The notes under the pieces were generated by a model. The model saw only the letters and a program-made list of their open reading frames with translations. It was not told where the DNA came from and did no database searches. The position numbers and the translations under genes are program-made. A DNA stretch of 64,000 nt from Methylotuvimicrobium alcaliphilum 20Z (lineage in GTDB: Bacteria > Pseudomonadota > Gammaproteobacteria > Methylococcales > Methylomonadaceae): assembly GCF_000968535.2 (NCBI RefSeq), contig NC_016112.1, positions 2,852,001 through 2,916,000 of the forward strand. The letters run 5' to 3'. This document shows positions 3,347 to 62,525 of this stretch, piece by piece. Numbering within the stretch: the first letter of the stretch is position 1; each line of letters starts with the position of its first letter.

Positions 3347-3356
3347 GGATTTGGGC

Positions 3357-3526
3357 ATAAATAACCTCCCTATTTTTAATGCAAGGTAAGCAGGTTCGGT
3401 AGCTCGATTGGCAGGTGTCGGCGGCAGGGAAAGCCGCCGTCAAGCCTACACGGACGTATTCACGGCGTCCTGTCAAGCGAGTTACCGAACCCGCTACAAA
3501 ACTCATAGCTCCAGGAAGTTATTTTT
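3357..3526. repeat. Family A repeat, copy A1
   Basis: Non-coding repeat between two plus-strand genes. Its core runs from GGTTCGGTAGCTCG (3393) to CGAGTTACCGAACC (about 3476-3492) and can fold as one long stem with two internal arms, GGCGGC/GCCGCC and GGACG/CGTCC. Outer weak inverted repeats (AAATAACCTCC at 3359, GGAAGTTATTT at 3514) extend it. Related copies are at 9638-9807, 43480-43655 and 47800-48028. No protein is encoded. Confidence 0.85.
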
Positions 3527-3612
3527 CACGAAATCCTAACCGATAAGCGGAATTTTAAACCCCTATCGAACCGTGCAGGCAAACGAATGAAACATTGGCA
3601 AAAGGTGAGCTT

Positions 3613-9637: not shown

Positions 9638-9807
9638 AGGGTGCGGTTGCTCGATCGACAGGCGTCGGCGGCAGGGAAAGCCGCCGTCGAGCCTACACGG
9701 ACGTATTTACCCAGCACCTAAATTATCTATTTATCTATCATGGCCAATAATCTATGGAATTTAGGTGCTGGGTTTACGGCGTCCTGTCGGGCGAGTGACC
9801 GCACCCT
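9638..9807. repeat. Family A repeat, copy A2, interrupted by a family B element
   Basis: Terminal stem AGGGTGCGGTTGCTCG (from 9637) pairs with CGAGTGACCGCACCCT (to about 9807). The internal arm GGCGGC/GCCGCC is intact. The second arm (ACGTATTT...TTACGGCGTCC) is split by the 65-bp element B1. Compared with A1, the stem sequence differs on both sides in a complementary way. Confidence 0.9.
9709..9773. mobile_element. Family B mini-element, copy B1 (65 bp, diverged)
   Basis: Bounded by ACCCAGCACCTAAATT and AATTTAGGTGCTGGGT, a perfect 16-bp terminal inverted repeat. It is inserted in the arm-2 loop of repeat A2 and the flanking dinucleotide TT is present on both sides (ACGTATTT | TTACGG), whereas uninterrupted copies have it once. 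The interior differs from the three identical copies B2-B4. Confidence 0.9.
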
Positions 9808-21271: not shown

Positions 21272-21686
21272 TGATCCGTTTTTTACAAAAATAAAGCCCG
21301 TTACCTAAATCGGCAAACGGTTTCCTTCAATGGGATAATTCCGAAAAGACTTAAAAAACCCTTACATCCAATGGAATTACACGAGATACCAAAACCGGGT
21401 GATTATAACAAAATGTCGAACGAGAGTCGAAGAGCTTACAACTTTATCAAAGCTTCTCAAATAGGGCTAGCGCAACAAATGGCGCAAGACTGCAAAACGT
21501 TCAGCACAAACGCCATTTTTGACACAAAAGCGTCACAGACCTGCCGTTTCTGTCACTTTTTTTTACAAAAGCCTAATACGCTCTTTAATAACATATGACT
21601 AAATCATTGAAAATACTTATTTTGATTAGATGGGCCTTGATATTGCTTCATTTATTATGAAACAACATTGATCAGAGGTGACGACA
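21272..21686. other. Divergent promoter region between gyrA and a small plus-strand gene
   Basis: The 415-bp gap carries the gyrA leader. A terminator-like stem on the plus strand pairs GTCACAGA (21532-21539) with TCTGTCAC (21549-21556), one mismatch, followed by a T-run to 21564. No upstream plus-strand gene explains it. A 75-codon frame at 21371-21598 runs through it and looks spurious. A small RNA ending near 21564 is possible but unproven. Confidence 0.4.
21629..21686 (+). promoter_or_regulatory. Upstream block conserved between the two 68-residue paralogues
   Basis: From GATGGGCCTTGATATT (21629) to AGAGGTGACGACA the sequence is nearly the same as 45479-45534, upstream of the second copy. 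The gene was therefore duplicated with its promoter and leader, or both leaders are under selection. The core AGAGGT is the ribosome binding site. Confidence 0.6.
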
Positions 21687-21893
21687 ATGGAAAATCAAAC
21701 TATAGAAATCACAAGCCAAGCACAGTCCGCATTCATCGAAATGCTAAGCGCTGAATTTATTGCGCAAACCGGCGTTGGTGTTTATGCCTATCTAACACCG
21801 CTTGCGATCAACAGCTTATTCAGACAATATTTACAACACAGAGAGCCGCTAAGGGCATTCACGAAGCAATACGTAAAAACCGTTTTGGTTTAA
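21687..21893 (+). CDS. Small conserved protein of unknown function, paralogue 1
   Basis: A 68-residue protein that I do not recognise. It starts at ATG 21687 behind AGAGGTG; an upstream in-frame GTG at 21678 is less likely. The middle is hydrophobic and aromatic (EFIAQTGVGVYAYLTPLAINSLF) and the C-terminus is basic (QYLQHREPLRAFTKQYVKTVLV). There is no signal peptide, cysteine cluster or clear DNA-binding motif. A second copy at 45535-45741 is identical at 57 of 68 positions, with most substitutions conservative, which indicates purifying selection and argues that both are real genes. It is convergent with hemN. Confidence 0.75.
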   Translation: MENQTIEITSQAQSAFIEMLSAEFIAQTGVGVYAYLTPLAINSLFRQYLQHREPLRAFTKQYVKTVLV

Positions 21894-21948
21894 TTGCAAC
21901 CAAAAACAGGAAACGAAGAACGCTATAATCGGTTTTTCTGGATTTCTT

Positions 21949-32059: not shown

Positions 32060-32245
32060 AGCTCTTTGCAAAACCAAGGCACTGCCCATAGATGCCGTGA
32101 ACCCAGCACCTAAATTATCCAAGATAGTTAACCATAGCCAATGGACTATGGAATTTAGGTGCTGGGTGAACGGGCGGTCCTCGATAGACACATCCCATAC
32201 CTTTTATTCTTAGACGGTTTTTCGATCAAAAAGGGAGTAAGTGCT
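32060..32245. repeat. Diverged family D-like repeat hosting element B2
   Basis: The right part (GGTCCTCGATAGACACATCCC... to TCGATCAAAAAGGGAGTAAG) resembles the second half of repeat D2 near 60175-60230. The left part ends GATGCCGTGA, the usual B insertion target. The host is degraded, so its limits are approximate. Confidence 0.5.
32101..32167. mobile_element. Family B mini-element, copy B2 (67 bp)
   Basis: ACCCAGCACCTAAATT ... AATTTAGGTGCTGGGT, with the inner palindrome CCATAG/CTATGG. Flanked by GA on both sides (CCGTGA | GAACGG). Base-for-base identical to B3 and, inverted, to B4. Confidence 0.93.
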
Positions 32246-41921: not shown

Positions 41922-42065
41922 CTACAACAGATTATTATGTTGCATTAGCCCCAAGACGCCTCGAACGATCAAATAAACAGCCACGAAGTAATTTAAAAAT
42001 CTAGGCACCACCAAAATTAATATCCCTATCACAAGTGCCAACATAGGTTCGATTGCAATAGTCAT
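41922..42065 (-). CDS. DUF3096 family small membrane protein
   Basis: A 47-residue product read from the ATG complement at 42063-42065: MTIAIEPMLALVIGILILVV, then PRFLNYFVAVYLIVRGVLGL and a short polar end. One to two helices with the PRxLNYxVAxYLIxxGxxGL signature identify the DUF3096 family. It lies 69 bp upstream of the DUF3309 gene on the same strand and probably shares its transcript. Function unknown. Confidence 0.82.
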   Translation of the reverse strand: MTIAIEPMLALVIGILILVVPRFLNYFVAVYLIVRGVLGLMQHNNLL

Positions 42066-42197
42066 TTCGATCCTTGTCGAGTTAAGAGATATTACAAACT
42101 AACGGTAATAATGAACTTAGTCTGTTCGGTATCGAACACATAGCTTCTTAAAACATGACATCCTTAATTCACCGCCGAACCTGATACACTGCTAGCC

Positions 42198-42348
42198 TAT
42201 ACTCATCGCAGATTAAAATTCGGCGCTGGGGTGCCCGTCAAAGGACGCCGTGAATACGTCCATGTAGGCTCCATGCTGGCAAAGCCTTTGTCGAGCACCC
42301 CGGTGCCTCCTTAGTCTCCCGCCGAATTTTGAAGTACGAAAGGTATAC
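42198..42348. mobile_element. Family C repeat, copy C1 (minus orientation)
   Basis: Bounded by TATAC and GTATA, with inner inverted repeats AAAATTCGGC and GCCGAATTTT. It contains the shared module as its complement (AAAGGACGCCGTGAATACG) and the GGGGTGCCCG/CGAGCACCCC stem. The B target in its loop is empty. About 151 bp. Confidence 0.88.
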
Positions 42349-42419
42349 TTTCAAAACTTGAATATCTGGTTACGTTGAGCCATTCAGTGTTTTCCTTGTC
42401 AGCCGTGACCCGAAAAATC

Positions 42420-42821
42420 TCAAGGCCGCACGTCAGCTTCCCAAGAAACGCTTGCCGGACACCATTGCCAGATTCCCAGACTAATGATTCTTGTCAGCGC
42501 TGTTGGGAAACATGCGCCTCGACCGACGATCACTTTGCGGTTAATCAATTTATCGGAGTCGCCGCACCGACTGAGATAATCATCGGCATTAATCTCATTG
42601 AGGTCGGCGTGGGGCATAAAAAATGCCAGTACAGGAATCGGTATGACGGCGATGGAGGAGTCATCGGCACCTTCACTACCGGAGCAATGAATGGTGCCTG
42701 CTTCGTCCATTCGCGTGTCATCCTTGACAAGGGTTTGAGAACAGCCGGACAAAACCACGATGGCAATACCCAAGAGTAATAGCAACCGGCTAACTTTGGC
42801 TCTTAACATGATATTTTTCAT
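42420..42821 (-). CDS. Small putative lipoprotein of unknown function
   Basis: A 133-residue product with an N-terminal signal of lipoprotein type (basic start MKNIMLRAKVSRLLLLLGIA, lipobox LSGC at residues 24-27). The mature part has a hydrophobic stretch (SSIAVIPIPVLAFFMPH) and three more cysteines (HCSG, SRCGD, GACFP, with another in QWCPA). This pattern suggests a small disulphide-bonded outer-membrane lipoprotein. The closing segment SLGIWQWCPASVSWEADV looks like a conserved motif but I do not recognise the family. It stands between repeats C1 and E2. Confidence 0.65.
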   Translation of the reverse strand: MKNIMLRAKVSRLLLLLGIAIVVLSGCSQTLVKDDTRMDEAGTIHCSGSEGADDSSIAVIPIPVLAFFMPHADLNEINADDYLSRCGDSDKLINRKVIVGRGACFPTALTRIISLGIWQWCPASVSWEADVRP

Positions 42822-42888
42822 ATAACCTCCAACGGTTATGGCGTACTAAAATTCAGCTAAATTACACCATGCGAATTCAATTCCGTTC

Positions 42889-43116
42889 CTGATTAGCAAG
42901 ATGCTTCAGCTTGCTGAAGCCAATTGTCCGAGCAGTGGCCAGTCGTAGCCACTTCTGCGGGACGGGTTATTTAACCCGTCCCCAACGTTTCGGTTTGCCC
43001 TAAATATTTCGGCTAACTTCGGCCAAAGTCAAAACGTTTAGGACGGGATTGCAAACCCCGTCCTGCTAGGGATATGCTGGTTTTTGGGCTTTAGCTGAAG
43101 AAACTTGCTAATTAGG
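42889..43116. mobile_element. Family E repeat, copy E2
   Basis: About 228 bp from CTGATTAGCAAGATGCTTC to GAAACTTGCTAATTAG. The interior has GCTTCAGC/GCTGAAGC, GTGGC/GCCAC, GACGGGTTA/TAACCCGTC and GGACGGG/CCCCGTCC hairpins. It is nearly the same as the complement of E1. Confidence 0.88.
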
Positions 43117-43270
43117 ATTCCGTTTGTCATTACGATGAGTCGAAACGCTCACGGTCGTTGATACAAAATCTAACACCATCATCAGCACAAGTCTGTACGG
43201 TAGCGAACACTCGATATTCAACCAAACGATCATGAAGAGGCTGTCATCACCCCGGATAATGAAAGTACCC

Positions 43271-43426
43271 AGGGTATGGTCCACTGCCATTAAGTTAAGG
43301 ATTTTTCCGTTCGCCCTGAGCCTGTCGAAGGGTGAATGGAAAAATCCTGGGGCGATAAGTTAAGCCGTCCATGGTTCGACAGGCTCACCACGAACGGCTT
43401 AACTTAATGGCAGTGAGGGTATGGTC
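43271..43426. mobile_element. Family G element, copy G1, with 11-bp target duplication
   Basis: The 134-bp element (43282-43415) has ends CACTGCCATTAAGTTAAG and CTTAACTTAATGGCAGTG. It is flanked on both sides by the exact 11-mer AGGGTATGGTC (43271-43281 and 43416-43426). Inside are two REP-like hairpins with the CGACAGGCTCA motif. The ends resemble those of IS4 as I remember them, and 11-bp duplications also fit that family. Confidence 0.92.
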
Positions 43427-43479
43427 AGGGTGCGGTATTTTTACAGCAGAGTTTTGCATATTGAAAAATTAAATAAGGA

Positions 43480-43655
43480 ACGAGCATGAAATAACTTAGA
43501 CAACGGTTGGAAGGGGATTTGGTGGCTCGATTGACAGGTGTCGGCGGCAGGGATAGCCGCCGTCAAGCCTACACGGACGTATTCACGGCGTCCTGTCAAG
43601 CGAGTCACCAAACCGCCACAAAGCCTACTACTTGTATAGGTTATTTTGTGCGTAT
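43480..43655. repeat. Family A repeat, copy A3
   Basis: Core stem GGATTTGGTGGCTCG (from 43514) pairs with CGAGTCACCAAACC (to 43614). Arms GGCGGC/GCCGCC and GGACG/CGTCC are both intact and empty. Outer inverted repeat GAAATAACTT (43488) and TTATTTTGTGC (43641) match copy A4. Confidence 0.88.
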
Positions 43656-43691
43656 TCCTAAGCAATCCAAAACTGCGCACTTTCAAAGTAA

Positions 43692-43850
43692 TATACCTTT
43701 CGCATTTCAAATTTCGGCAGTGCCTGAGGAGGCGCCGGGGTGCTCGGCAAAAGCTTTGCCGGCATGGAGCTGGCTAGAGCCTACAGGGACGTATTCACGG
43801 CGTCCTTTGACGGGCACCCCGGTGCCGAATTTTGATCTACGATGGGTATA
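43692..43850. mobile_element. Family C repeat, copy C2 (about 159 bp)
   Basis: TATACCTTTCGCATTTC ... CTACGATGGGTATA. It carries the outer AAATTTCGGC/GCCGAATTTT stem, the GGCGCCGGGGTGC/GCACCCCGGTGCC stem, arm GGCAAAAGCTTTGCC and an empty shared module GGACGTATTCACGGCGTCC. This is the best reference copy of family C. Confidence 0.9.
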
Positions 43851-43989
43851 ACTGATGTTACGAAGAATCATCACTTTTCCCACCGAATGTAGCGGTAAGA
43901 GTTTCGGGGTTTGCTCTACATGCAGTAGCGGCGCGTAACATCGGCAAATAATTTGCACCATTCACGGCAAATGAGCGTTTGCGGTTGCA

Positions 43990-44736
43990 TTACAATCGTT
44001 TGGGATCAAAATGCACCAGCCGAAAACCTTGTTGCTGAAGATTGGCGACAATTTCATCGAGATGTCGGTAGGTGGCGGGACGATTGTCATGGAATATCAG
44101 TAGACAGGGATGCGGCTTGCTCCATGCCGCCAAAATAGACTGCGTCTTTTGTTGAATCATGGCAACCGTTGCCCCCGGATTAGAATCGCCTACCAATTCC
44201 CCCATGACGATCTGATAGCCTAATCGATCAGCCGTTTCACGCACATGGTTATTGAGAATCAAATAGGGCGATCGAAATAAACGCAAGTCCGATTTACCTA
44301 ATACCCTTTCATGAATAGCCTCCCACTCGGTAAATTCGGCGAGCACAGCCTTCTTCGTATCCAGCCAAGGCCATCGAAACCATGGATGATGAGTCGTATG
44401 ATTACCGATAATATGTCCTTCCTGTTTGATTCTCCGGGTAATTTCCGGATATCTTGCGATACTGCCCTTTTGAGTCCAGAGTTCGTAGGGTGCGTAATAA
44501 AGCCGCCTTCGCCAAAAATCATCGGGCGCATCGGCCAGCAAGAAAAAACCGGCTTTTACCGGTGCCCCGTCAGAAGCCTTAAGTTTTGCCAAACTATCCA
44601 ACACGCGCTCGGTTGTTTCGGGCAGCGGCCCATCATCAAAGCTGAGCATAAACTCGACACTTCTCGTTGGTGTGTATCCTCGCAGATAGCTCTCGTCCCA
44701 TCCTGTCACACAGCCAAATAATAGACCCGAGACCAC
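43990..44736 (-). CDS. Polysaccharide deacetylase (NodB-type carbohydrate esterase 4)
   Basis: A 248-residue deacetylase of N-acetylated glycans, probably exported. The NodB motifs are present: SFDDGP (D34, D35) and the metal histidines HTTHH (H113, H117); the RSPY and LLIFHD motifs complete the site. The only usual start codon is GTG at 44736, giving MVSGLLFGCV. Codons upstream of it (44737-44778) continue in frame as ...IKKSIIWLVLVVSGLLFGC, an ideal lipoprotein signal with lipobox LFGC, but contain no ATG, GTG or TTG before a stop. The real start may be unusual, or the 5' end may have decayed. Confidence 0.85.
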   Translation of the reverse strand: MVSGLLFGCVTGWDESYLRGYTPTRSVEFMLSFDDGPLPETTERVLDSLAKLKASDGAPVKAGFFLLADAPDDFWRRRLYYAPYELWTQKGSIARYPEITRRIKQEGHIIGNHTTHHPWFRWPWLDTKKAVLAEFTEWEAIHERVLGKSDLRLFRSPYLILNNHVRETADRLGYQIVMGELVGDSNPGATVAMIQQKTQSILAAWSKPHPCLLIFHDNRPATYRHLDEIVANLQQQGFRLVHFDPKRL

Positions 44737-44819
44737 TAGGACTAACCAAATAATAGACTTCTTGATTACGTTGATTTTTTAATTACCTTTCAATCTAGAA
44801 AAAATCAGGCGAACACGTG

Positions 44820-44905
44820 AAATCCGTTCGTTCTGAGCCCTTCGGCTAGGCTCAGGGCGAACGGGATTTAGAATGCTCAACTGATTTTTTAGGTTCAATT
44901 CAATA
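44820..44905. repeat. REP-like hairpin related to family G
   Basis: AAATCCGTTCG (44820-44830) pairs with CGAACGGGATTT (44858-44869) around an inner GAGCC/GGCTC hairpin. The following CTCAACTGATTTTTTAGGTT copies the context of the hairpin at 4244-4324. Confidence 0.65.
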
Positions 44906-45014
44906 GTCACCTCGCCTAGGCAGTCGTTCATATGCCCAACCTTTTCCGATCAGCAAATATCAATCTCAGAAAACGAATTCGCCCGGAAAAATAGTTAAAT
45001 TAGCGGGTGGATAT

Positions 45015-45163
45015 TATACCTTTCGCACTTCAAATTTCTTCGGTAGTGTCTGAGGAAGCGCCGGGGCGTCCAACAAAGGCTTTGCCAGCATAGATCCTAC
45101 ATAGATACATTCACGGCATACTTTGACGACCCCGGCGCCGAATTTTGATCTACGATAGGTATA
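45015..45163. mobile_element. Family C repeat, copy C3 (diverged)
   Basis: TATACCTTTCGCACTTC ... CTACGATAGGTATA. The shared module has decayed to ATACATTCACGGCATAC, so the arm-2 pairing is lost. Between 45164 and 45478 I see nothing beyond unremarkable sequence. Confidence 0.85.
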
Positions 45164-45478
45164 TATCGGAAAACTTTCGCCAGTATGTACGATAGCGTAC
45201 AGACCAATAAGCATCCGATACTTCACTATATCTCTCAGAGCAGATATAAAAAGCGAACCGTTTCTTGCATCCCCAACCGGATCTAACGATCCAAGTCTTA
45301 TGTAGATGCCTTACGTTAATCATGTATCCATCTAAGACCAAGACAGGCACGCCAAGAGATCACGCCGATTTAGAACAGGAATCCGGTATGCCTTCAATTT
45401 CTCCTCGAGGAAAGTTGACTAGACCAAGCTTTACCTTTGAATAATTTATTAAACTATTGAAACTATTTATATTCTTTA

Positions 45479-45534
45479 GATGGACCTTGATATTACTTTT
45501 TATTATGAAAAATCATTGATCAGAGGTATCGACA
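45479..45534 (+). promoter_or_regulatory. Conserved upstream block of the second 68-residue paralogue
   Basis: GATGGACCTTGATATTAC ... AGAGGTATCGACA closely follows the block at 21629-21686. It includes the ribosome binding site AGAGGT, and the similarity extends some 30 bp further upstream. Confidence 0.6.
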
Positions 45535-45741
45535 ATGGAAAATCAACCGATAGAAATCACAAGCCAAGGGCAGTCCACATTCATCGAAATGCTAAGCGGT
45601 GAATTTATTTCGCAAACCGGCATTGGCGTTTACGCCTATCTTACACCGCTTGCGATCGACAGCTTATTCCAACAATATTTACAACACAAAGAACCACTAA
45701 GGGCATTCACAAAGCAATTAGTGAAAACCGTCTTAGCTTAA
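45535..45741 (+). CDS. Small conserved protein of unknown function, paralogue 2
   Basis: A 68-residue protein identical to the 21687-21893 product at 57 positions (changes at residues 5, 12, 15, 22, 26, 30, 42, 46, 52, 62 and 68). Conserved parts include ITSQ, FIEMLS, the GVYAYLTPLAI core, QYLQH and EPLRAFTKQ. The start ATG follows AGAGGTATCGACA. It stands alone between repeats C3 and C4. I know no family for it; the duplicated and conserved leader suggests a regulated small protein. Confidence 0.75.
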   Translation: MENQPIEITSQGQSTFIEMLSGEFISQTGIGVYAYLTPLAIDSLFQQYLQHKEPLRAFTKQLVKTVLA

Positions 45742-45805
45742 TTGCAGCCAAAAACAGCCACCGAAGAACGCCGAAACCGATTTTCATGCATTGCTTCGGA
45801 CATGA

Positions 45806-46101
45806 TATACCCATCGATCGTAGATCAAAATTCGGCACCGGGGGGCCAGTCAAAGGACGCCGTGAACCCAGCACCTAAATTATCCAAGATAGTTAACCAT
45901 AGCCAATGGACTATGGAATTTAGGTGCTGGGTGAATACGTCCCCGTAGACTCTATGCCAGCTCCATGCCGGCAAAGCCTTTGCGAGCGCCATGGATGGCG
46001 TGTATTAGGACAATGCAGGAGCGATTGCCGAGGAGCGAAAATCGACCTAGCACAGCAGCGCCTTCTAAGGCACTACCGAAATTTGAAGGGCGAAAGGTAT
46101 A
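45806..46101. mobile_element. Family C repeat, copy C4 (minus orientation), hosting B3 and an extra arm
   Basis: TATACCCATCGATCGTAG ... CGAAAGGTATA. The shared module (GGACGCCGTGAATACG) is split by element B3 at CCGTGA. The other arm carries an extra cassette with GCGCCATGGATGGCG and AATGCAGGAGCGATTGCCG, matching the complement of the cassette in C5. Total about 296 bp. Confidence 0.88.
45866..45932. mobile_element. Family B mini-element, copy B3 (67 bp)
   Basis: Identical over 67 bp to B2. Flanks CCGTGA | GAATACG duplicate the dinucleotide GA. Inserted in the loop of the shared module of C4. Confidence 0.95.
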
Positions 46102-46157
46102 TTTTTAAAAACGCTAATCCCACACATCACAAACTATCAAAATTTTGGAGAACAACG

Positions 46158-46586
46158 ATGACTTTGGATCAAATTGAAGACAAATCGGTAATATCAAAAG
46201 AGAAATTCGGGGAAACATCGAAACTTGACCTGAGCCATTCGGGAGAGCAGATGCGGCCATCCATGAGAGCAGGGTTGACGCTTGGCGTGATGAGTCTCGT
46301 AGCCGGCCTCAGCGGTTGCATGATTGTCGATGCGCCGATTAAAGGCGTTTTAGGTACCGAAGTCATCTGGGGCGACATAGCGACCGGGGAAACTACCGAC
46401 CCAGCCACTTTGAAGGAAGGCAAAGCCTGCGCGGAATCCATACTTGGCTTGCTGGCCCGCGGCGATGCTAGTGTTCGCGCGGCAAAGCAAAATGGCAATA
46501 TCACGGAAGTCACTTCAGTGGATCACTCGGCGAGGAACTTACTCAACATCGTCGGCGAATGGTGTACGATCGTCAGAGGCCATTAA
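46158..46586 (+). CDS. TRL-like family putative lipoprotein
   Basis: A 142-residue protein. After a polar N-terminal stretch of about 35 residues comes a hydrophobic segment with lipobox (RAGLTLGVMSLVAGLSGCM). The mature part has the TRL-like pattern: GVLGTEVIWGDIATGE, LKEGKACAESILGLLARGDAS, AAKQNGNITEVTSVDHSARNLL and a closing EWCTIVRG. Family members are small secreted or lipid-anchored proteins of unknown role. The ATG at 46158 has GGAG upstream; a longer frame to 45924 lies inside repeats B3/C4 and is rejected. The long pre-signal extension is odd and an internal start at MRPSMRAG is possible. Confidence 0.75.
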   Translation: MTLDQIEDKSVISKEKFGETSKLDLSHSGEQMRPSMRAGLTLGVMSLVAGLSGCMIVDAPIKGVLGTEVIWGDIATGETTDPATLKEGKACAESILGLLARGDASVRAAKQNGNITEVTSVDHSARNLLNIVGEWCTIVRGH

Positions 46587-46720
46587 CCCCCTTTTACGTG
46601 ATGGCAACGAAAGAAAGGTCACTGCGAATGAACTCCGGTTCACATCCATCTGCGCAACACAGAATGAGGAGTGACATAGCCAATTCGTATACATCGATAA
46701 AGCCCCGCATCAACCGGCTT

Positions 46721-46882
46721 ATGAGCAACAAAGGCAACACAATCGTCATTGCGGGGCAAGCCTACCGACTGAAACCCATCCATCGCAAAAACGATCCGGT
46801 TTGTTTCAGCTGCAAATTCCTCGGCCGCGAGCAAGTTTTCGGCCCCTTCTGCATCGCGTCCCATGAAACAGGCTTGGCTTGA
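46721..46882 (+). CDS. Small protein with three cysteines, overlapping the acyltransferase gene
   Basis: A 53-residue frame, MSNKGNTIVIAGQAYRLKPI, then KNDPVCFSCKFLGREQVFGPFC. The C-x-x-C and third Cys suggest a small metal-binding fold, but I know no family. It ends 20 bp inside the next gene (46863), which suggests translational coupling. The frame is open further upstream to 46559, and the ribosome binding site is weak. Confidence 0.45.
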   Translation: MSNKGNTIVIAGQAYRLKPIHRKNDPVCFSCKFLGREQVFGPFCIASHETGLA

Positions 46883-47756
46883 AGTACCGGAGCGAAGCAG
46901 CCTGTTCTGGTTAAACACCATCAAATGGATCGCCTTGCGGGCCGGGCGATGGTTGTCGCGTCTCCTGCTTTACCCGATCACAATCTATTTCGTTGTGTTC
47001 TCGTACCGCGCCCGCTCGGCATCCCGCAACTTTCTACGAAAGGTTTTGGGCAGGGATTGCGGCTGGGCCGAGGTATTCCGGCATTACCACACCTTCGCCC
47101 ACACGTTGCTCGATCGGGTTTACATGTTTGCCGGACAAGGTCAGCGATTGGATATTCGCATCAAAGGCCTGGAAGTGCTGGACGAATACGCCCGTTCCGG
47201 GCGCGGCTGTCTGCTCGTAGGCGCGCATCTCGGCAGCTTCGAAATCATCCGTGCGGTAGGCAAATTACAGAGCGGATTCCATATCAAAGCGCTCGTTTAT
47301 GGGGAGAGTACGCCCCAAGTTACCGGCATATTCCGAAAGTTGAACCCGGCATTGTTCGAAGATATTGTCTATGTGGGCGATATCGGTTCATTGATTGGGC
47401 TCGACGAGCACGCGCGCCAGGGCGGTCTCATCGCGCTATTGGGAGACCGCAGCGTGCGTGCCGACAAACGGATACGCTGCGAATTTTTCGGCGAGCCGGC
47501 ATGGTTTCCAGAGGCTCCTGTCTTGCTGTCTCGAATTCTCGACATGCCCTTGGTTACGTTCTTCTGCCTACATCGGAATGACGGAGGCTACGACGCCTGG
47601 TTTGAACACCTGGCCGACCCGCCGCGGGTCGGCCGAAACCAGCGGGAAACAGCGGCTCGTTGCATTATGCAAAACTACGCCAACCGCCTGGAATATTATT
47701 GTCGATTGGCGCCGTACAACTGGTTCAATTTTTATGATTTTTGGAAGGACGAATAG
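46863..47756 (+). CDS. LpxL/HtrB-like lysophospholipid acyltransferase family protein
   Basis: A 297-residue membrane-associated acyltransferase. An N-terminal hydrophobic anchor (residues 31-47) precedes the HX4E catalytic motif GAHLGSFE (H122, E127). The LPLAT blocks LLGDRSVRAD and FFGEPAWFPEAPVLLSRILDMPLVTFF follow, then YCRLAPYNWFNFYDFW near the end. True lipid A acyltransferases have this layout. Paired with a family-2 glycosyltransferase it also resembles the acyltransferases of aryl polyene clusters, but no ketosynthases are present. The substrate is unknown. Confidence 0.85.
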   Translation: MKQAWLEVPERSSLFWLNTIKWIALRAGRWLSRLLLYPITIYFVVFSYRARSASRNFLRKVLGRDCGWAEVFRHYHTFAHTLLDRVYMFAGQGQRLDIRIKGLEVLDEYARSGRGCLLVGAHLGSFEIIRAVGKLQSGFHIKALVYGESTPQVTGIFRKLNPALFEDIVYVGDIGSLIGLDEHARQGGLIALLGDRSVRADKRIRCEFFGEPAWFPEAPVLLSRILDMPLVTFFCLHRNDGGYDAWFEHLADPPRVGRNQRETAARCIMQNYANRLEYYCRLAPYNWFNFYDFWKDE

Positions 47757-47799
47757 AAACGCGGCTAATGCCTTATTGCCTGACAACGATTCGCTAAGG

Positions 47800-48028
47800 A
47801 ACGAACATGAAATAACTTCATCAAATGTCGGAAGGGGGTTCGTTGGCTCGATTGACAGGTGTCGGCGGCAAGGCAGATTTTTGCTCCTGCAAAATCTGCA
47901 TTCATGCCATCCTTGGCAATCAGATTCCGCCGTCAAGCCTACACGGACGTATTCACGGCGTCCTGTCAAGCGAGTCAACGAACCTCCACAAAGCTTACTG
48001 TTTCGCGAAGTTATTTTGTGCATATTAC
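47800..48028. repeat. Family A repeat, copy A4, with an extended arm 1
   Basis: Core stem GGTTCGTTGGCTCG (from 47837) pairs with CGAGTCAACGAACC (to 47984). Arm 1 is enlarged by a cassette with GCAGATTTT/AAAATCTGC and GCCATCCTTGGC hairpins, related to the cassettes in C4 and C5. Arm 2 (GGACG/CGTCC) is empty. Outer GAAATAACTTC/GAAGTTATTTT. It sits between the acyltransferase and the glycosyltransferase. Confidence 0.88.
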
Positions 48029-48048
48029 TTATGAATGGAGAGATCAAC

Positions 48049-48798
48049 ATGAACGGAAGAGACAAATACGTACTGGTAATCCCAGCCTATAACGAATCCG
48101 CCACCATCCGCGAGGTAGTGCAAGGCGCCTTACGGCATCTCGGCACGGTGATTGTCGTTGACGACGGCTCCAACGATGGCACTGCGGACAAACTCTCAAA
48201 TTTACCGGTGACATTGCGGCGCCATCCCGAGAATCAGGGAAAGGCGGCAAGCTTGTGGAACGGCATGCAGACCGCCTTGAATCTCGGCGCGAAAGGAATC
48301 GTCACCATGGACGGGGACGGCCAGCACGATCCGGCAGACTTGCCAAGGCTCTTGATGGCGGCAAAAGTCCATCCGGACAAACTGGTGATTGGCTCACGCC
48401 TCTGGAACCGAGACGTGATTCCAAAGGCGCGCTACCGGGCCAACCGTTTCGCCAACTTCTGGATCGCCTGGGCCGCAGGACAAACCATCGAAGACAGCCA
48501 GTCGGGTTTCCGCGTGTATCCGGCACAATTGATCCGACGCTGCCGTTTCGTATTGGGCCGGAAACAGAGCTTCGTTTTCGAAAGCGAGATCATCATCGAA
48601 GCCGCCCGACACAGATTTCCATGCGCCTTCGTACCCGTGAGTACAACCTACCCCGAAAATGCCAGACCCAGTCATTTCCATCCGATGAACGATATCGCTC
48701 ACATCACCCGCATGGTGGCATGGCGTTTGTTTATTCAAGGCTTTTTTCCGTCCGGATTATGGCGAAGCCTTAATGGCAGCCAAAGTCTAAAACTGTGA
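48049..48798 (+). CDS. Family 2 glycosyltransferase (dolichyl-phosphate-mannose synthase-like)
   Basis: A 249-residue GT-A enzyme: VIPAYNESATIREVV, VIVVDDGSNDGTADKL, HPENQGKAASLWNGM, the metal-binding DGDGQHDP (D88, D90) and the acceptor loop SQSGFRVYP. The C-terminal YPENARPSHFHPMNDIAHITRMV replaces the transmembrane domains found in some relatives. The start at 48049 is preceded by GGAGAG at good spacing; a much longer frame starting at 47395 runs out of phase through the acyltransferase gene and repeat A4 and is rejected. It probably acts with the acyltransferase on a lipid or glycolipid. Confidence 0.87.
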   Translation: MNGRDKYVLVIPAYNESATIREVVQGALRHLGTVIVVDDGSNDGTADKLSNLPVTLRRHPENQGKAASLWNGMQTALNLGAKGIVTMDGDGQHDPADLPRLLMAAKVHPDKLVIGSRLWNRDVIPKARYRANRFANFWIAWAAGQTIEDSQSGFRVYPAQLIRRCRFVLGRKQSFVFESEIIIEAARHRFPCAFVPVSTTYPENARPSHFHPMNDIAHITRMVAWRLFIQGFFPSGLWRSLNGSQSLKL

Positions 48799-48850
48799 AA
48801 ATTATTGTGCTTTCACCTATCGAAGGTATTTCGACACTTTCGCGTAAAAC

Positions 48851-48877
48851 GTCGGGTTACGCTATCGCTAACCCGAC
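48851..48877. terminator. Hairpin between convergent glycosyltransferase and squalene-hopene cyclase genes
   Basis: GTCGGGTTA (48851-48859) and TAACCCGAC (48869-48877) form a perfect 9-bp stem between the two stops at 48798 and 48888. It is a likely bidirectional terminator, or a REP. Confidence 0.55.
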
Positions 48878-48887
48878 CTACGCAACT

Positions 48888-50855
48888 TTATGATATAAAG
48901 TCCCCGCATTCGTTGCGGTAGCGCCCTAGCGCCCAAAGCGGAAAGTATTTTTCGTAACCGTGATATTTTAAATAAAAAAACTTGGGAAAACCCGGCGCAT
49001 TAAAGCCATCGTCTTTCCAAAACCCATCGTCTTGTTGGTTTTTCAAGAGATAATTAATTCCCGATTTAACTTCGGGGCAACCCGCCTCGCCGGCCGACAT
49101 CAAGGCCAGCAGCGCGAGCGCGGTATGAAATGCCGAGCCGGTTTCGCTTTCGCCGCGAACCCCGACATCGTGATAACTATCATTGTCCTCCCCCCAACCG
49201 CCGTCGGCACGCTGCTTGGATTTTAGCCAAACCACAGCTTTACGAATGTGGGAATCATGCTTCGAAATACCGGCGCTTTCGAACCCGGTCAATACAGACC
49301 AAGTTCCGTAAATGTAATTTGTTCCCCACCGACCGAACCAGGATCCGTCGGCTTCCTGCTGATTGCGCAAATAGGTAATGCAGGTGTCGATAACGGCCCG
49401 GTATTCCGGCTGTCTATCGACCAGTTTGCTCAAAAACATAACGCAGCGTCCGCTGACATCAGCGGTAGGCGGGTCGAGCAAAGCGCCGTGATCGGCGAAC
49501 GGTATATGGTTGAGATAGCTATGCGTATTGTCCGCGTCAAAAGCGCCGTAGCCGCCATTGGCGGATTGCATGCCGGCAATCCATACGCCTGCCCGTTCGA
49601 TATTTTCGGCAAACTCGCGATCGCCGGACTCTATCATCGCCAGCGCAACCACCGCGGTATCGTCGACATCGGGATAATGACTGTTGCCGAACTGAAAAGC
49701 CCAGCCGCCGCCCGGCAGATTGGGCCGTTGCACCCGCCAATCGCCCGGTTCGTTGCTCAATTGCCGACCGGCCAGCCAATTTAAAGCCTTAGTGAGCGAT
49801 TGTTCGGCAATCGGATCACGCTCGCGGCGATCGACTTCCTGCAGAACCAGCACGGCTAGACCGGTATCCCAAACCGGTGAAACGCAAGGCTGACAGTAGG
49901 CCTTATCCGGCTTGACGACTAGCAATCGATCGATCGCTTCCCTGGCGATACGCCGCCGTTCATCGTCGGCAGGAATCCCTAAATAATCCATGGCCTCATA
50001 GGCATTAACCATGGATGTAAAGATAGCACCCAGTCCATCGTACCCATTCAATCGGGACATAAACCAATCGCGAGCCTTGATCGTTGCCTTGCGGCGAACG
50101 AAACCGGGAATCAACGGTTCCATCAAGCGGCCCATGCGGTCCGCGGCCAATATGGACTTGCCTAGCGGTGTTTTAACGTGTGCAAAATAATTTTTTTCCG
50201 ACTCAGGCTGCGTGATAAAGAGCTCTGAAATCCCCACGTTATTCGGATTACGAGCCTTGACTTTATAAGTACACAAGATGAATAACGGCACCATTACGGT
50301 ACGGGACCAATACGAAACTTTATCGATATGGAACGGAAACCATTTCGGTAAAAGCATGATTTCGACCGGAATAAAAGGCACGCCGCGCCAAGGGATCTGC
50401 TCGAACATCGCCATCATGATACGCGTAAAGACGTTAGCCTTGGCGCCGCCGCCCCGAGCCAGTATCCAACGGCGCGCTTTGACCATGTGCTGCGCTTGAA
50501 TCGAGTCGCCGGCCAATTTCATCGCGTAATAAGCCTTGATCGTGCAACTCAGGTCTCCCGGTCCGCCTTTATAAAGCGGATAACTGCCGTCCCGGTCTTG
50601 TTGTTCGTGGAGATATTGAACGATCTTGGCCTGGTGCGTTGCATCGATTTCACCCATGAAATGCATCATCAAGATGTATTCGGAAGGAATCGTGCAATCC
50701 GCTTCGAGCTCGAAAACCCAATAGCCTTCCTCGTTTTGCAGTTCTAAAAGCCGCGCCTTGGCGCAAGTTATCGCATCGTTCAAGCTCAAACGTGGATAGG
50801 ACAGGCTAGTCGATGAAGCATCCTGATCAGGATGAAAAATGGTCTCTATTAGCAT
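48888..50855 (-). CDS. shc: Squalene-hopene cyclase
   Basis: Cyclises squalene to hopene/hopanol, the first committed hopanoid step, at the inner membrane. The 655-residue product has the catalytic DxDD motif D396-V-D398-D399 (YPDVDDTAVVAL), several QW repeats (QNEEGYWVFELE, QDRDGSYPLYKGGPGDLS, QEADGSWFGRWGTNYIYGTW, QRADGGWGED, QQDDGFWKD) and the substrate-channel region. The start MLIETIFHPDQ at 50855 begins the conserved part; a frame to 51023 adds an unconvincing extension that reaches into repeat C5. No other hopanoid gene is adjacent. Confidence 0.95.
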   Translation of the reverse strand: MLIETIFHPDQDASSTSLSYPRLSLNDAITCAKARLLELQNEEGYWVFELEADCTIPSEYILMMHFMGEIDATHQAKIVQYLHEQQDRDGSYPLYKGGPGDLSCTIKAYYAMKLAGDSIQAQHMVKARRWILARGGGAKANVFTRIMMAMFEQIPWRGVPFIPVEIMLLPKWFPFHIDKVSYWSRTVMVPLFILCTYKVKARNPNNVGISELFITQPESEKNYFAHVKTPLGKSILAADRMGRLMEPLIPGFVRRKATIKARDWFMSRLNGYDGLGAIFTSMVNAYEAMDYLGIPADDERRRIAREAIDRLLVVKPDKAYCQPCVSPVWDTGLAVLVLQEVDRRERDPIAEQSLTKALNWLAGRQLSNEPGDWRVQRPNLPGGGWAFQFGNSHYPDVDDTAVVALAMIESGDREFAENIERAGVWIAGMQSANGGYGAFDADNTHSYLNHIPFADHGALLDPPTADVSGRCVMFLSKLVDRQPEYRAVIDTCITYLRNQQEADGSWFGRWGTNYIYGTWSVLTGFESAGISKHDSHIRKAVVWLKSKQRADGGWGEDNDSYHDVGVRGESETGSAFHTALALLALMSAGEAGCPEVKSGINYLLKNQQDDGFWKDDGFNAPGFPKFFYLKYHGYEKYFPLWALGRYRNECGDFIS

Positions 50856-51035
50856 GGATAGTTTTTCTGACTTCCCTTTAGTATTAGCGGTATCAGACCT
50901 GAAATAAAGTCGGTGGTGCAGGACAAAAAAAACTGCAGCAATCAATTGCCGCAGCGAGCCGGGAGGAGCGCAATAACAAAAATGAGTTTTATGATGGATT
51001 AAGTTAAGCCAACCTTTCGGCAATCCGTACCGGAA

Positions 51036-51293
51036 TATACCTTTCGCACTTCAAATTTCGGCATTAGCCAATGGAGGTGCCGGGGTGTTAGGTCGATTTT
51101 GCTCCTCGGCAATTGCTCCTGCATTGCCCTACTACACGCCATCCTTGGCGTAATGCAAAATCGACATTCACGCCATCCATGGCGCTCGCAAAGGCTTGGA
51201 TAGCATGGATGCTATCATAGAGCCTACTTGGACGTATTTACGGCGTCCTTTGACGGGCACCCCGGCACCGAAATTTGACAAGCAAAGGGTATA
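51036..51293. mobile_element. Family C repeat, copy C5 (long form with extra arm cassette)
   Basis: TATACCTTTCGCACTTC ... AGCAAAGGGTATA, about 258 bp. The shared module (GGACGTATTTACGGCGTCC) is empty. Arm 1 holds a cassette of about 100 bp with GTCGATTTTGC...GCAAAATCGAC and ACGCCATCC...GGCG hairpins. Just beyond its right end, CTTAACATAATGGCACTG (about 51299-51316) looks like a solo end of family G. Confidence 0.88.
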
Positions 51294-51510
51294 ACGACTT
51301 AACATAATGGCACTGTTGACCAGATATGTGCCGCTGAGTTATCACGCTGTATTGCCGATTTAAGCCATCCCGGTAACATTGCTTATATGTCTGCAAATTA
51401 GTTTTCTGTCGATACGTTACTTTGCGGTAATGATAACAGTGACTTTTAAATGTCGTCGGTACGCTGCCGCACATATAACCATTTCCGGTTTTTAAGAATG
51501 CTTCCTTCTG

Positions 51511-51576
51511 TACCCGTGGATCAAAGTTCGGCGCCTCTTCAGGTACAGCCGAAATTTGAAGTGCGATAAGGTATAC
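51511..51576. repeat. Family C remnant, copy C6
   Basis: Only the two ends remain: TACCCGTGGATCAAAGTTCGG and CCGAAATTTGAAGTGCGATAAGG (shown in parts), 66 bp in all. The inner arms are deleted. It lies upstream of the first Crp-type gene. Confidence 0.75.
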
Positions 51577-51766
51577 ATGCACTTGCCGACAATTACTCCT
51601 CTCCGTTCGCTTGCACCCCTTAAAGTTCTCTGCTATAAATTAGTTGCCTTTATTTCCATAAAAAATACCCGGCTTTTTCTATAAGCTTATCGAGGCTACG
51701 AACCGGTTCGCCACATAAACCATTCGTAGAATATCCCCTTCCATGACTATCTAGTTTGGATTACTT

Positions 51767-52519
51767 ATGACCGATGCATGCGATCCTCGACAAAACCATC
51801 TGCTCAACTTGCTGCCCTCAAACCAATATGAGCGGATAATACCTCATCTTGAAGGCGTATCCATGCGACTTGGCGAAGTCCTTTACGAATCCGGGGGCGA
51901 ATTGAATTATGTCTATTTCCCCACGAATTGCATCGTTTCGCTGCTTTATGTCATGGAAAATGGCGCTTCGGCAGAAATTGCCGTAACCGGCAACGATGGT
52001 ATTATCGGCGTTGCGGTATTCATGGGCGGAGGAACCATGCCGAACCGAGCCGTCGTACAAAGCGCTGGACATGCTTACCGACTTCGAAAAAAGTCGTTCA
52101 TGCAGGAATTTAACCGATCGGGCGGCCGCCGCTCGAGTGCTTTGCAACATCTGATGCTTCGTTATGCTCAAACCTTGATCACTCAAATGTCGCAGACTGC
52201 AGTTTGCAATCGGCATCATTCGGTGGATCAGCAGCTTTGCCGATGGCTATTGCTCAGCCTCGATAGACTGCCTACCAATGAATTGCGCATGACGCAGGAG
52301 CTAATCGCCAATATGCTTGGCGTTCGCCGGGAAGGTGTCACGGAAGCCGCCGGTAAATTACAGAAAGCCGGATTGATCGAATACAGCCGTGGACGCATCA
52401 TGGTAATAGATAGACCCGGATTGGAGGAACGCGTCTGCGAATGCTATGACGTCGTAAAAACCGAATTCGATCGTCTGCTCCCCCCCCCCGATCTAAACGC
52501 TGCGCTCCTTTCTTACTGA
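51767..52519 (+). CDS. Crp/Fnr family transcriptional regulator 1
   Basis: A 250-residue regulator with an N-terminal cyclic-nucleotide-binding-like beta-roll (residues 20-140: LEGVSMRLGEVLYESGGELNYVYFP, AVTGNDGIIGVAVFMGG) and a C-terminal winged helix (MTQELIANMLGVRREGVTEAAGKLQKAGLIEYSRGRIMVIDRPGLE). The usual cAMP-contacting GE...R-S/T signature is absent and there is no N-terminal Fe-S cysteine set, so it is neither true Crp nor Fnr. It belongs to the large group of related regulators in stress gene clusters. Ligand unknown. A paralogue follows. Confidence 0.88.
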   Translation: MTDACDPRQNHLLNLLPSNQYERIIPHLEGVSMRLGEVLYESGGELNYVYFPTNCIVSLLYVMENGASAEIAVTGNDGIIGVAVFMGGGTMPNRAVVQSAGHAYRLRKKSFMQEFNRSGGRRSSALQHLMLRYAQTLITQMSQTAVCNRHHSVDQQLCRWLLLSLDRLPTNELRMTQELIANMLGVRREGVTEAAGKLQKAGLIEYSRGRIMVIDRPGLEERVCECYDVVKTEFDRLLPPPDLNAALLSY

Positions 52520-58260: not shown

Positions 58261-58425
58261 CAGCAATTCCCAGTTTGAGCATTTTCGCCGATCTTAGGGT
58301 GTGGGGTATGCCTGTCGAGGAACGCCGTAAACCCATCCATGGGGGCTTGGCGGCAGCTCCCTGCTGCCGACATCCTCGCCAAGCACACCCCACACCCTTT
58401 TTGATCCCCAAATTGGGAATTGCTG
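58261..58425. mobile_element. Family D repeat, copy D1 (about 165 bp)
   Basis: Perfect 12-bp ends CAGCAATTCCCA and TGGGAATTGCTG. Inner stem GGGTGTGGGGT/ACCCCACACCC, arm GGCAGC/GCTGCC and a B-target-like segment GGAACGCCGTAAACCC. The last part is a diverged form of the module shared by A and C. No B element is inserted. Confidence 0.85.
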
Positions 58426-60099: not shown

Positions 60100-60280
60100 A
60101 TGAAGGTATGGGGGTGTGGCTAGCGAAGATGTCGGCCAGCAGGGAGCAACCGTCAAGCCCCATGGAAGGACTCACGCCGGTCCTCCCTTTTTAGTCTTAG
60201 ACGTCTGTTCAATCAAAAGGGAGCAAAATCTGTCCTGCTACCGACATTCTCACCCCCGTACTTGCTGATAATTAGACTTT
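60100..60280. repeat. Family D-like repeat, copy D2 (diverged)
   Basis: GGGGGTGTGGCTAGCG ... CTCACCCCCGTACTTGCTG. The outer stem (GGGGGTG/CACCCCC) and TGTCGGC...CCGACA pairing are kept. The middle contains CCATGGAAGGACTCACG and GGTCCTCCC, related to D1 and to the host of B2. Confidence 0.65.
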
Positions 60281-62296: not shown

Positions 62297-62525
62297 TACC
62301 TTTCGCACTTCAAATTTCGGCAGTGCCCGAGGAGGCGCCGGGGTGTCCGACAAAGGCTTTGCCAGCATGGATACTGTCATAGAGCCTACATGGACGTATT
62401 CACCCAGCACCTAAATTCCATAGTCCATTGGCTATGGTTAACTATCTTGGATAATTTAGGTGCTGGGTTCACGGCGTCCTTTGACGGGCACCCCGACGCC
62501 GAAATTTGACGAGCAAAGGGTATAC
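62295..62525. mobile_element. Family C repeat, copy C8, hosting B4
   Basis: TATACCTTTCGCACTTC ... AGCAAAGGGTATA. Stems AAATTTCGGC/GCCGAAATTT and GGCGCCGGGGTG/CACCCCGACGCC are present. The shared module (GGACGTATTC | TCACGGCGTCC) is interrupted by B4. It has itself replaced the right end of G2, giving an F-G-C-B nest. Confidence 0.9.
62402..62468. mobile_element. Family B mini-element, copy B4 (67 bp, inverted)
   Basis: Its reverse complement is identical over 67 bp to B2 and B3. Flanked by TC on both sides (CGTATTC | TCACGG). Confidence 0.95.

Follow-up and report, generated by a model that had tools for sequence, protein, structure and literature searches.

Self-nesting double-hairpin units in the arms of six repeat families of Methylotuvimicrobium alcaliphilum 20Z

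Palindromic repeats resembling miniature inverted-repeat transposable elements (MITEs) were analysed in a 64,000-nt stretch of Methylotuvimicrobium alcaliphilum 20Z (the window) and in the whole genome of this organism (4.80 Mb, two contigs; the own genome). The extra arm carried by many of these repeats is a unit of near-fixed geometry, common to six MITE-like families. It nests in the tip of its own hairpin, and at a given site it is gained or lost whole. With a probability of roughly 0.55, it represents a non-autonomous double-hairpin element similar to repetitive extragenic palindromes (REPs), having insertion-type mobility into hairpin tips and later reshuffled by recombination. A first-pass annotation of the window had proposed that arms are gained, lost or swapped as units while the outer stems stay. 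Unit-wise differences between arms and the occurrence of the same inner arms in several outer families bear this out; swapping is one process among several, alongside insertion-like gain, differences at short repeats and fusion of nested elements.

Anatomy of the arm units

Setting armless against armed copies side by side revealed that each arm is a unit of about 48-49 bp built of two hairpins. Hairpin 1 is bulged, with a GC-TCCT-GC tip and one unpaired 5' base below it, and hairpin 2 has the form X-CATCCNTG-X'. The inner hairpin of armless family-D copies is GTCGGCAGC-AGGGA-GCTGCCGCC, and armed D copies add 49 bp (CAGATTTTTGCTCCTGCAAAATCTGCATTCACGCCATCCTTGGCGTTCG) within its loop. Six outer-stem families carry this unit, termed U, in the loop of an inner hairpin. 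The U tip can in turn house, between GCTCC and TGC, a second unit, K (TCGGCAATTGCTCCTGCATTGCCCTAATACACGCCATCCATGGCGTAA, 48 bp), and a third, R, is located in the K tip in inverted orientation. The nesting states U, U(K) and U(K(R)) were found, along with tandem copies; among the fetched loci (numbered with L), L184 holds three tandem U and L302 two nested U(K(R)). By eye, the ends of U, K and R are unpaired with each other, so that the units lack terminal inverted repeats, and the duplication accompanying K at its target is 0-1 bp (two filled/empty pairs). An extra insert of about 23 bp (CGCCTAAAGCGCCTACTGTTGGT) is seen within the K stem at L283, L289 and L302.

Own-genome DNA searches scored the best 40 of 620, 569, 141 and 206 candidates, and the copy numbers obtained are lower bounds. 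A K query found 40 places at 94-100% identity and one short match when 40 of 141 first-look candidates were scored. The hairpin-2 motif GCCATCCWTGGC occurs 235 times genome-wide as compared to 2 for a reversed control; 100 of these places were listed, and the 53 outside earlier loci were fetched as 48 stretches.

Three elements of the window bear arms. A4 (47798..48028, plus strand) is a family-A MITE with the inverted ends GGAACGAACATGAAATAACTT / AAGTTATTTTGTGCATATT and one unit U (47873..47921, approximate ends, plus strand) consisting of hairpin 1 CAGATTTTTGCTCCTGCAAAATCTG and hairpin 2 ATTCATGCCATCCTTGGCAAT, within a GGCGG...CCGCC inner hairpin where armless copies have AGGGAWA. C5 (51036..51293, plus strand), a family-C MITE with TATACC...GGTATA ends, carries a U(K) arm in which the outer unit Uc (51091..51187, plus strand; GGTCGATTTTGCTCC-K-TGCAAAATCGACATTCACGCCATCCATGGCGCTC) holds the 48-bp K (51106..51153, plus strand) in its loop. 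C4 (45806..46101, minus strand) is a family-C MITE with an insertion of another element, G, and an eroded U(K) arm (45987..46043, minus strand) whose K and U hairpin-2 copies look fused, resembling a 34-bp difference at L002/L202 described below. The three had been annotated as motif-bearing arms with a similar cassette. The motifs are present, as GCCATCCWTGGC has four exact matches in the window (45988-45999 on the minus strand, 47906-47917, 51138-51149 and 51172-51183), but the contents differ, being U in A4, U with nested K in C5 and eroded U(K) in C4. With at most one mismatch, GCCATCCWTGGC has six window matches against 0.67 expected. The signal of GATTTTGCTCC is weak (3 matches against 1.73 expected at the same tolerance) because A4 carries GATTTTTGCTCC and C4 carries GATTTTCGCTCC. 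DNA-mode folds of the A4, C4 and C5 stretches lie far beyond their shuffled controls (z of -8.8, -6.0 and -7.9, respectively).

Arm types and outer stems

From the fetched own-genome stretches, 174 elements were parsed (173 distinct upstream keys), damaged-anchor elements being left out, and were assigned by their 5' stem to families with short, hand-chosen marker stretches. It superseded a parse with looser anchors, most of whose 1226 rows were false. Armless and armed copies are both present in all six outer families; the stretches came mostly from armed queries, and the armed fractions are not genome frequencies. Family A (n=36) comprises 6 armless, 21 U, 2 U(K), 2 U(K(R)), 4 tandem and 1 other element, and family C (n=66) comprises 27 armless, 15 U, 19 U(K) and 5 U(K(R)), with none tandem or other. 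The corresponding figures are 15 armless, 2 U, 7 U(K), 2 U(K(R)), 1 tandem and 0 other for family D (n=27), and 6 armless, 3 U, 4 U(K), 0 U(K(R)), 1 tandem and 1 other for family E (n=15). Family F (n=14) has 3 armless elements, 10 U and 1 U(K), and family H (n=10) has 1 armless, 7 U, 1 U(K) and 1 tandem, the remaining classes being empty in both. Six of the 174 elements could be assigned to no outer family.

The inner arms do not track the outer stems, since five families share one and the same 48-bp K sequence (two copies each in C, D and E, one each in F and A) and four share one 49-bp R (three copies each in C and A, two in D, one in E). There are 14 K sequence types among 38 copies, a second shared type being found in C, D and one unassigned element, and 5 R types among 13 copies. 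Arms always following the phylogeny of their stems, which would contradict exchange of arms between families, were thus not seen, either in the 174-element parse, where identical K and R cross families, or between two pairs of orthologous A elements that differ by one 48-bp K.

The ends of A and E are alike, and the six families therefore cannot all be taken as unrelated; ends and duplications both differ among A, C and D. Families A, C and D display the MITE feature of terminal inverted repeats with a target duplication. Family A makes a 3-bp TTA duplication (filled in L038, empty in L237) and family D one of 9-10 bp (L163, L173), and a family-C element with its TATACC...GGTATA ends sits at a TA of an A element in L087, as judged by eye.

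Changes in place between sister species

Fifty site pairs, involving 49 own elements, were compared with fetched loci of other genomes, mainly M. buryatense 5G. In 29 pairs there is no insertion or deletion of at least 15 bp in or beside the element; among the remaining 21, several align poorly or in a complex manner. In two A-element pairs, L036/L204 and L048/L345, the 5G copy has exactly one 48-bp K that the own copy lacks. At L048/L345 the other 373 of 373 aligned positions are identical, and apart from K the copies are told apart only by element G (68 bp), which the own genome alone carries; at L036/L204 the stretch shown differs, besides K, by an 8-bp deletion 38 bp away and one substitution. 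Four other species are without the A element at the L048/L345 site; on the simplest reading, the K difference postdates the landing of the A element in the shared ancestor of the own strain and 5G.

Other differences are of another kind. A 34-bp difference at L002/L202 is bounded by direct repeats (10 exact bp, 16 imperfect), a 47-bp difference at L020/L219 by 7-bp repeats, and a multi-unit difference at L157/L221 by short direct repeats; all three are most simply deletions, unpolarised. L302/L357 is a rearranged array, and L019 (the same site as L063) is a C/D chimera in both the own genome and 5G. L187/L389 was considered as a clean gain of U and rejected, as the alignment shows D inside A with both copies deleted differently.

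Element G (CCCAGCACC...GGTGCTGGG) is palindromic and about 64 bp long. It is filled in the own genome and empty in 5G at 9 orthologous sites, plus L015, and hence looks recently active in this lineage. Its window copies lie at 9711-9771, 32103-32165, 45868-45930 and 62404-62466; at three of these four places it is in the GTATTCAC arm of another MITE, with a 4-5-bp duplication. The copy in C4 (45862..45935, no strand assigned) is in the GGACGTATTCACGGCGTCC arm and has a TTCA(C) duplication of 4-5 bp.

Hairpin geometry and stem covariation

The fetched loci contain 246 GCTCCTGC sites, 164 of which form a stem of at least 6/7. One unpaired 5' base lies below the tip at 159 of these 164 (T in 151, C in 7 and A in 1), and 5 are without it; the hairpin-1 core with its bulge measures 23 nt. 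Among 17 stem types the pairing is 0.891, as compared to 0.613 (maximum 0.782) after swapping arms between types. The core of the complete units (n=132) is 46 nt long in 116, 47 nt in 10 and 45 nt in 6.

Covariation was assessed on an alignment of 26 distinct cores chosen out of 60. Paired cells amount to 86.5% against 66.8% in shuffled and at most 37.5% in slid alignments, the first figure being inflated because the cores had been picked for pairing (at least 5/7 and 3/5). Cells changed on both sides number 81 against 25.5 in shuffles; they are not independent events, since the loci were fetched by similarity and the copies are related. The stems thus vary with complementarity kept, and the tips are constant.

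Units in other genera

A 102-bp query matched 54 of 121 genomes sampled from the bacterial family and 19 of the 29 genera in this sample, own genus included, many weaker matches covering hairpin 1 only. Named genomes with pattern matches comprise M. buryatense 5G and Methylomicrobium sp. wino1, among others. The K-type units of other genera are located in the tips of U-type hairpins with several different stems, and also in stems such as CCTTCTC/GAGAAGG and CCCTCTC/GAGAGGG (L417, L098). K within K occurs in L412 and L414, and a five-copy tandem of 48 bp in L409; L404 contains a unit without a recognised outer element. In L466 an inverted K-like hairpin holds an R-type unit in its tip, at GCAGG|AGC, the point and orientation being as in Methylotuvimicrobium. 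Flanking stems of at least 7 were recorded at 12 of 36 sites as compared to 1.1% of random windows; a GCTCC rule marked the host at 22 of these 36 sites, and inspection by eye at 18, three of them with one mismatch. At 35 of 36 sites TC stands directly before the K-type hairpin 1, but it may belong to the unit.

A truncated Y1 frame lies about 40-150 bp downstream of two R-type units (82% alike) that are enclosed in an inverted K-like repeat at L466 921-1036.

Proposed mechanism and alternatives

The units would insert into exposed hairpin tips of single-stranded, cruciform-prone DNA. The entry point would be TCC|T for K, behind the third base of the loop, AGG|A on the opposite strand for R, and AGG|GA or AGGG|A for U, without a clear duplication of the target. 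The reaction would be carried out in trans by an enzyme, and the conserved bulge and loop point to the Y1/HUH type as the most likely class. Insertion would be recursive, because each unit supplies a new target tip. Afterwards the shared hairpins would recombine, with arm loss between short direct repeats and fusion of nested host elements into chimeras. A bolder form of this mechanism, in which double-hairpin elements target the very tips they carry, allowing limitless mutual insertion by loop-in-loop transposition with MITEs as shared docking hosts, is put forward tentatively, at somewhat less than even odds.

Several results weigh against insertion into tips. One K type is confined to family C (12 of 38 copies), and the outermost unit U differs by stem group (A/E/F, D/H and C), so that it partly tracks the stems. 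No clearly unrelated host of K was seen in the own genome, a result compatible with homology-based copying and with insertion alike; host stems that differ today may have become different once the unit was in place, and when GCTCC-marked hosts are excluded, flanking stems of at least 7 remain at 2 of 14 sites. The two K events are not polarised, the direction of gain or loss being unreadable. In addition to the selection of the cores for pairing, two of five covariation measures, namely pairs with both-side change and further pair types, were not above shuffles (189/500 and 208/500). The enzyme search points the same way: no unit-like hairpin is present at any of 5 own Y1-transposase loci, units lie near the Y1 gene in 2 of 70 loci from 15 family genomes (L466, L492) and in 2 of 30 loci of the genus, own included (L264, L277), and complete units flank the gene on both sides in none of either set. 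No Y1 gene bounded by units was found among the fetched loci, which are a subset of the Y1 loci listed. The figure for the family comes from the wider scan (GCTCC-tip hairpin 1 with hairpin 2); a narrower scan for the K-type hairpin-1 pattern gave units in 1 of 70. In the genus set, L273 has a C-arm hairpin and L278 a distant hairpin 2, and in L264 and L277, which belong to two species, another element upstream of the Y1 gene carries a 47-49-bp unit V within its CCCCTC|TTTTTCAAAGAGGGG hairpin. A different, REP-like hairpin (CGTCGGGTTACGC...GCTAACCCGAC) was observed at window 48842-48880; the own-genome Y1 gene of L275 is flanked on each side by similar hairpins, and its cognate REP may therefore be a different one.

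Short-tract gene conversion or ectopic recombination alone, by which U, K and R each arose once and were copied among MITE families via flanking shared sequence, is a serious rival to tip insertion because the own-genome K and R observed all lie at the same positions; all the same, we consider it unlikely. It agrees with the likeness of U flanks among A/E/F and D/H (by eye) and with clear arm recombination at L002/L202, L020/L219 and L157/L221, in the L302/L357 array and in the L187/L389 and L019 chimeras. It accounts less readily for the K of L048/L345, which came or went without any substitution, for L036/L204, where the nearest difference is the 8-bp deletion 38 bp off, for K hosts with differing stems (GATTTTT, GATATTT, GAAAACT, GTTATTT and K itself), possibly diverged later, for R lying inverted within K, and for the L404 unit of another genus, which has no recognised outer element. 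A lower probability is given to a classic system in which the units are GTAG-tagged REPs mobilised by the cognate REP-associated tyrosine transposase (RAYT, TnpA-REP) of these genomes. On the minus strand some K and V units do read GTAG beside the bulged hairpin, the Y1 genes of L264, L277 and L466 have units upstream, loop and bulge are recognition features (PMC8266576), and REP dimers inside palindromes are reported (PMC3733652); U, R and the CTAAT-type K nevertheless have no adjacent GTAG, and the scarcity of units at scanned Y1 genes applies here as well.

Two further explanations are less probable still. Template switching at imperfect palindromes restores stem complementarity. Replication slippage or template switching at palindromes could make, copy and repair arms without any mobile element, giving compensatory stem changes without selection, and would suit the tandem 48-49-bp arrays and the short-repeat differences. 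It is considered quite improbable, since near-identical units dispersed in one genome and recognisable ones in 19 of the 29 genera sampled need transport, and both K polymorphisms are without border repeats usable by slippage. Hardly any weight falls on the arms being RNA elements kept for function, for example as GGA-in-loop sites for CsrA/RsmA-type proteins. TCCT/TCCN loops do read AGGA/NGGA on the other strand, and by eye GGA is present in the loop of several base arms; the CsrA-sponge explanation is placed this low because GGA loops occur on both strands, those of U and K being opposite to that of the host element, so that no single transcript has all. An Rfam search of positions 42000-52000 gave no family at gathering score (best 25.2 bits vs 70).

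Insertion into hairpin tips, if true, would offer a route by which structured DNA grows from interchangeable parts and MITE families are shuffled. The question of how REP-like palindromes without an adjacent transposase spread becomes testable here as a choice between a hairpin-tip enzyme and copying by recombination, given filled and empty sites that are nearly identical between two sister species, a near-fixed unit size, a precise insertion point and a recursive target.

Other repeats of the window

Three elements had been annotated as A1 to A3, with short simple arms. They are armless with AGGGAWA loops, but share no common outer stem: A1 (3347..3536, plus strand) has family-E ends, A2 (9638..9807, plus strand, with G inserted at 9711-9771) a family-F stem by eye, and A3 (43476..43668, plus strand) a family-A stem. 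The short arm ascribed to C2 (43692..43850, plus strand), a family-C copy, was confirmed as an armless state. Further family-C copies are C1 (42198..42347, minus strand), C3 (45015..45163, plus strand) and C8 (62295..62524, plus strand), the last with G inserted at 62404-62466. An armless family-D copy with CAGCAATTCCCA ends lies at 58261..58425 (minus strand), and 60111-60230 contains a D-like fragment with the beginning of an armed hairpin (GATTTTGCTCC, minus strand). A query with C5 against a plasmid collection gave no match.

A pair of repeats of about 350 bp (21600-21948 and 45450-45796) has 85% identity. A separate repeat family with CACTGCCATTAAGTTAAG ends occurs at 43282-43415 and in L281, L286, L288, L313, L319 and L325; at these six loci GCCATCCATGGC adjoins a hairpin resembling CGTC-tagged REPs (ATTCCGCC...GGCGGAAT-GACG).

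Comparison with known systems

Double-hairpin elements occur in Allomyces mitochondrial DNA. Like these and the repetitive hairpin elements (RHEs) of sponges, the units are small, mobile-looking hairpin elements; the mitochondrial ones reside in organelle DNA, the present ones in a bacterial chromosome. In sponge RHEs the stems are conserved and substitutions fall in the loops (PMC2800124), whereas here the tips are conserved and the stems vary.

Nesting of MITEs in MITEs is another likeness, as A, C and D are MITE-like with duplications of TTA, TA and 9-10 bp, and G nests in them with a 4-5-bp duplication. U, K and R differ in being without a terminal inverted repeat or clear duplication and in being located in hairpin tips or loops. 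Y1/HUH enzymes (TnpA-REP, IS200/IS605) recognise a bulged hairpin together with loop bases (PMC8266576, PMC6006769). The units resemble IS200/IS605 in having hairpins near both ends and, for K, a duplication of 0-1 bp; they differ from it in that no scanned Y1 gene is bounded by units and no tetranucleotide guide was established.

A search of titles and abstract openings, with subscription journals outside it, found no literature on these repeats, including under Methylotuvimicrobium with MITE. PMC3733652 describes REPs as short, high-copy imperfect palindromes whose stem types vary with complementarity kept and which occur in pairs and clusters. The units are likewise imperfect palindromes in the 20-40 bp range and of high copy number (23-nt hairpin-1 core; at least 40 K places and 235 hairpin-2 motifs). 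Unlike REPs, they have GTAG at the hairpin foot only in V and the CTAC-type K (by eye), U, R and the CTAAT-type K being without it, and they combine two differing hairpins, a 46-nt core, recursive nesting and several MITE hosts, with no cognate RAYT found. They are not filed as REPs, because a consistent GTAG tag and a cognate RAYT both fail. The nearest parallel in the literature consulted is that of some REPs and REP dimers inside palindromes: in PMC3733652, some REP dimers of A. variabilis and H. neapolitanus are reported to have palindromes as their insertion sites, and REPs of T. roseum to lie in small palindromes. As compared to these, the present units look like a REP-like variant that has a double-hairpin geometry and nests recursively.

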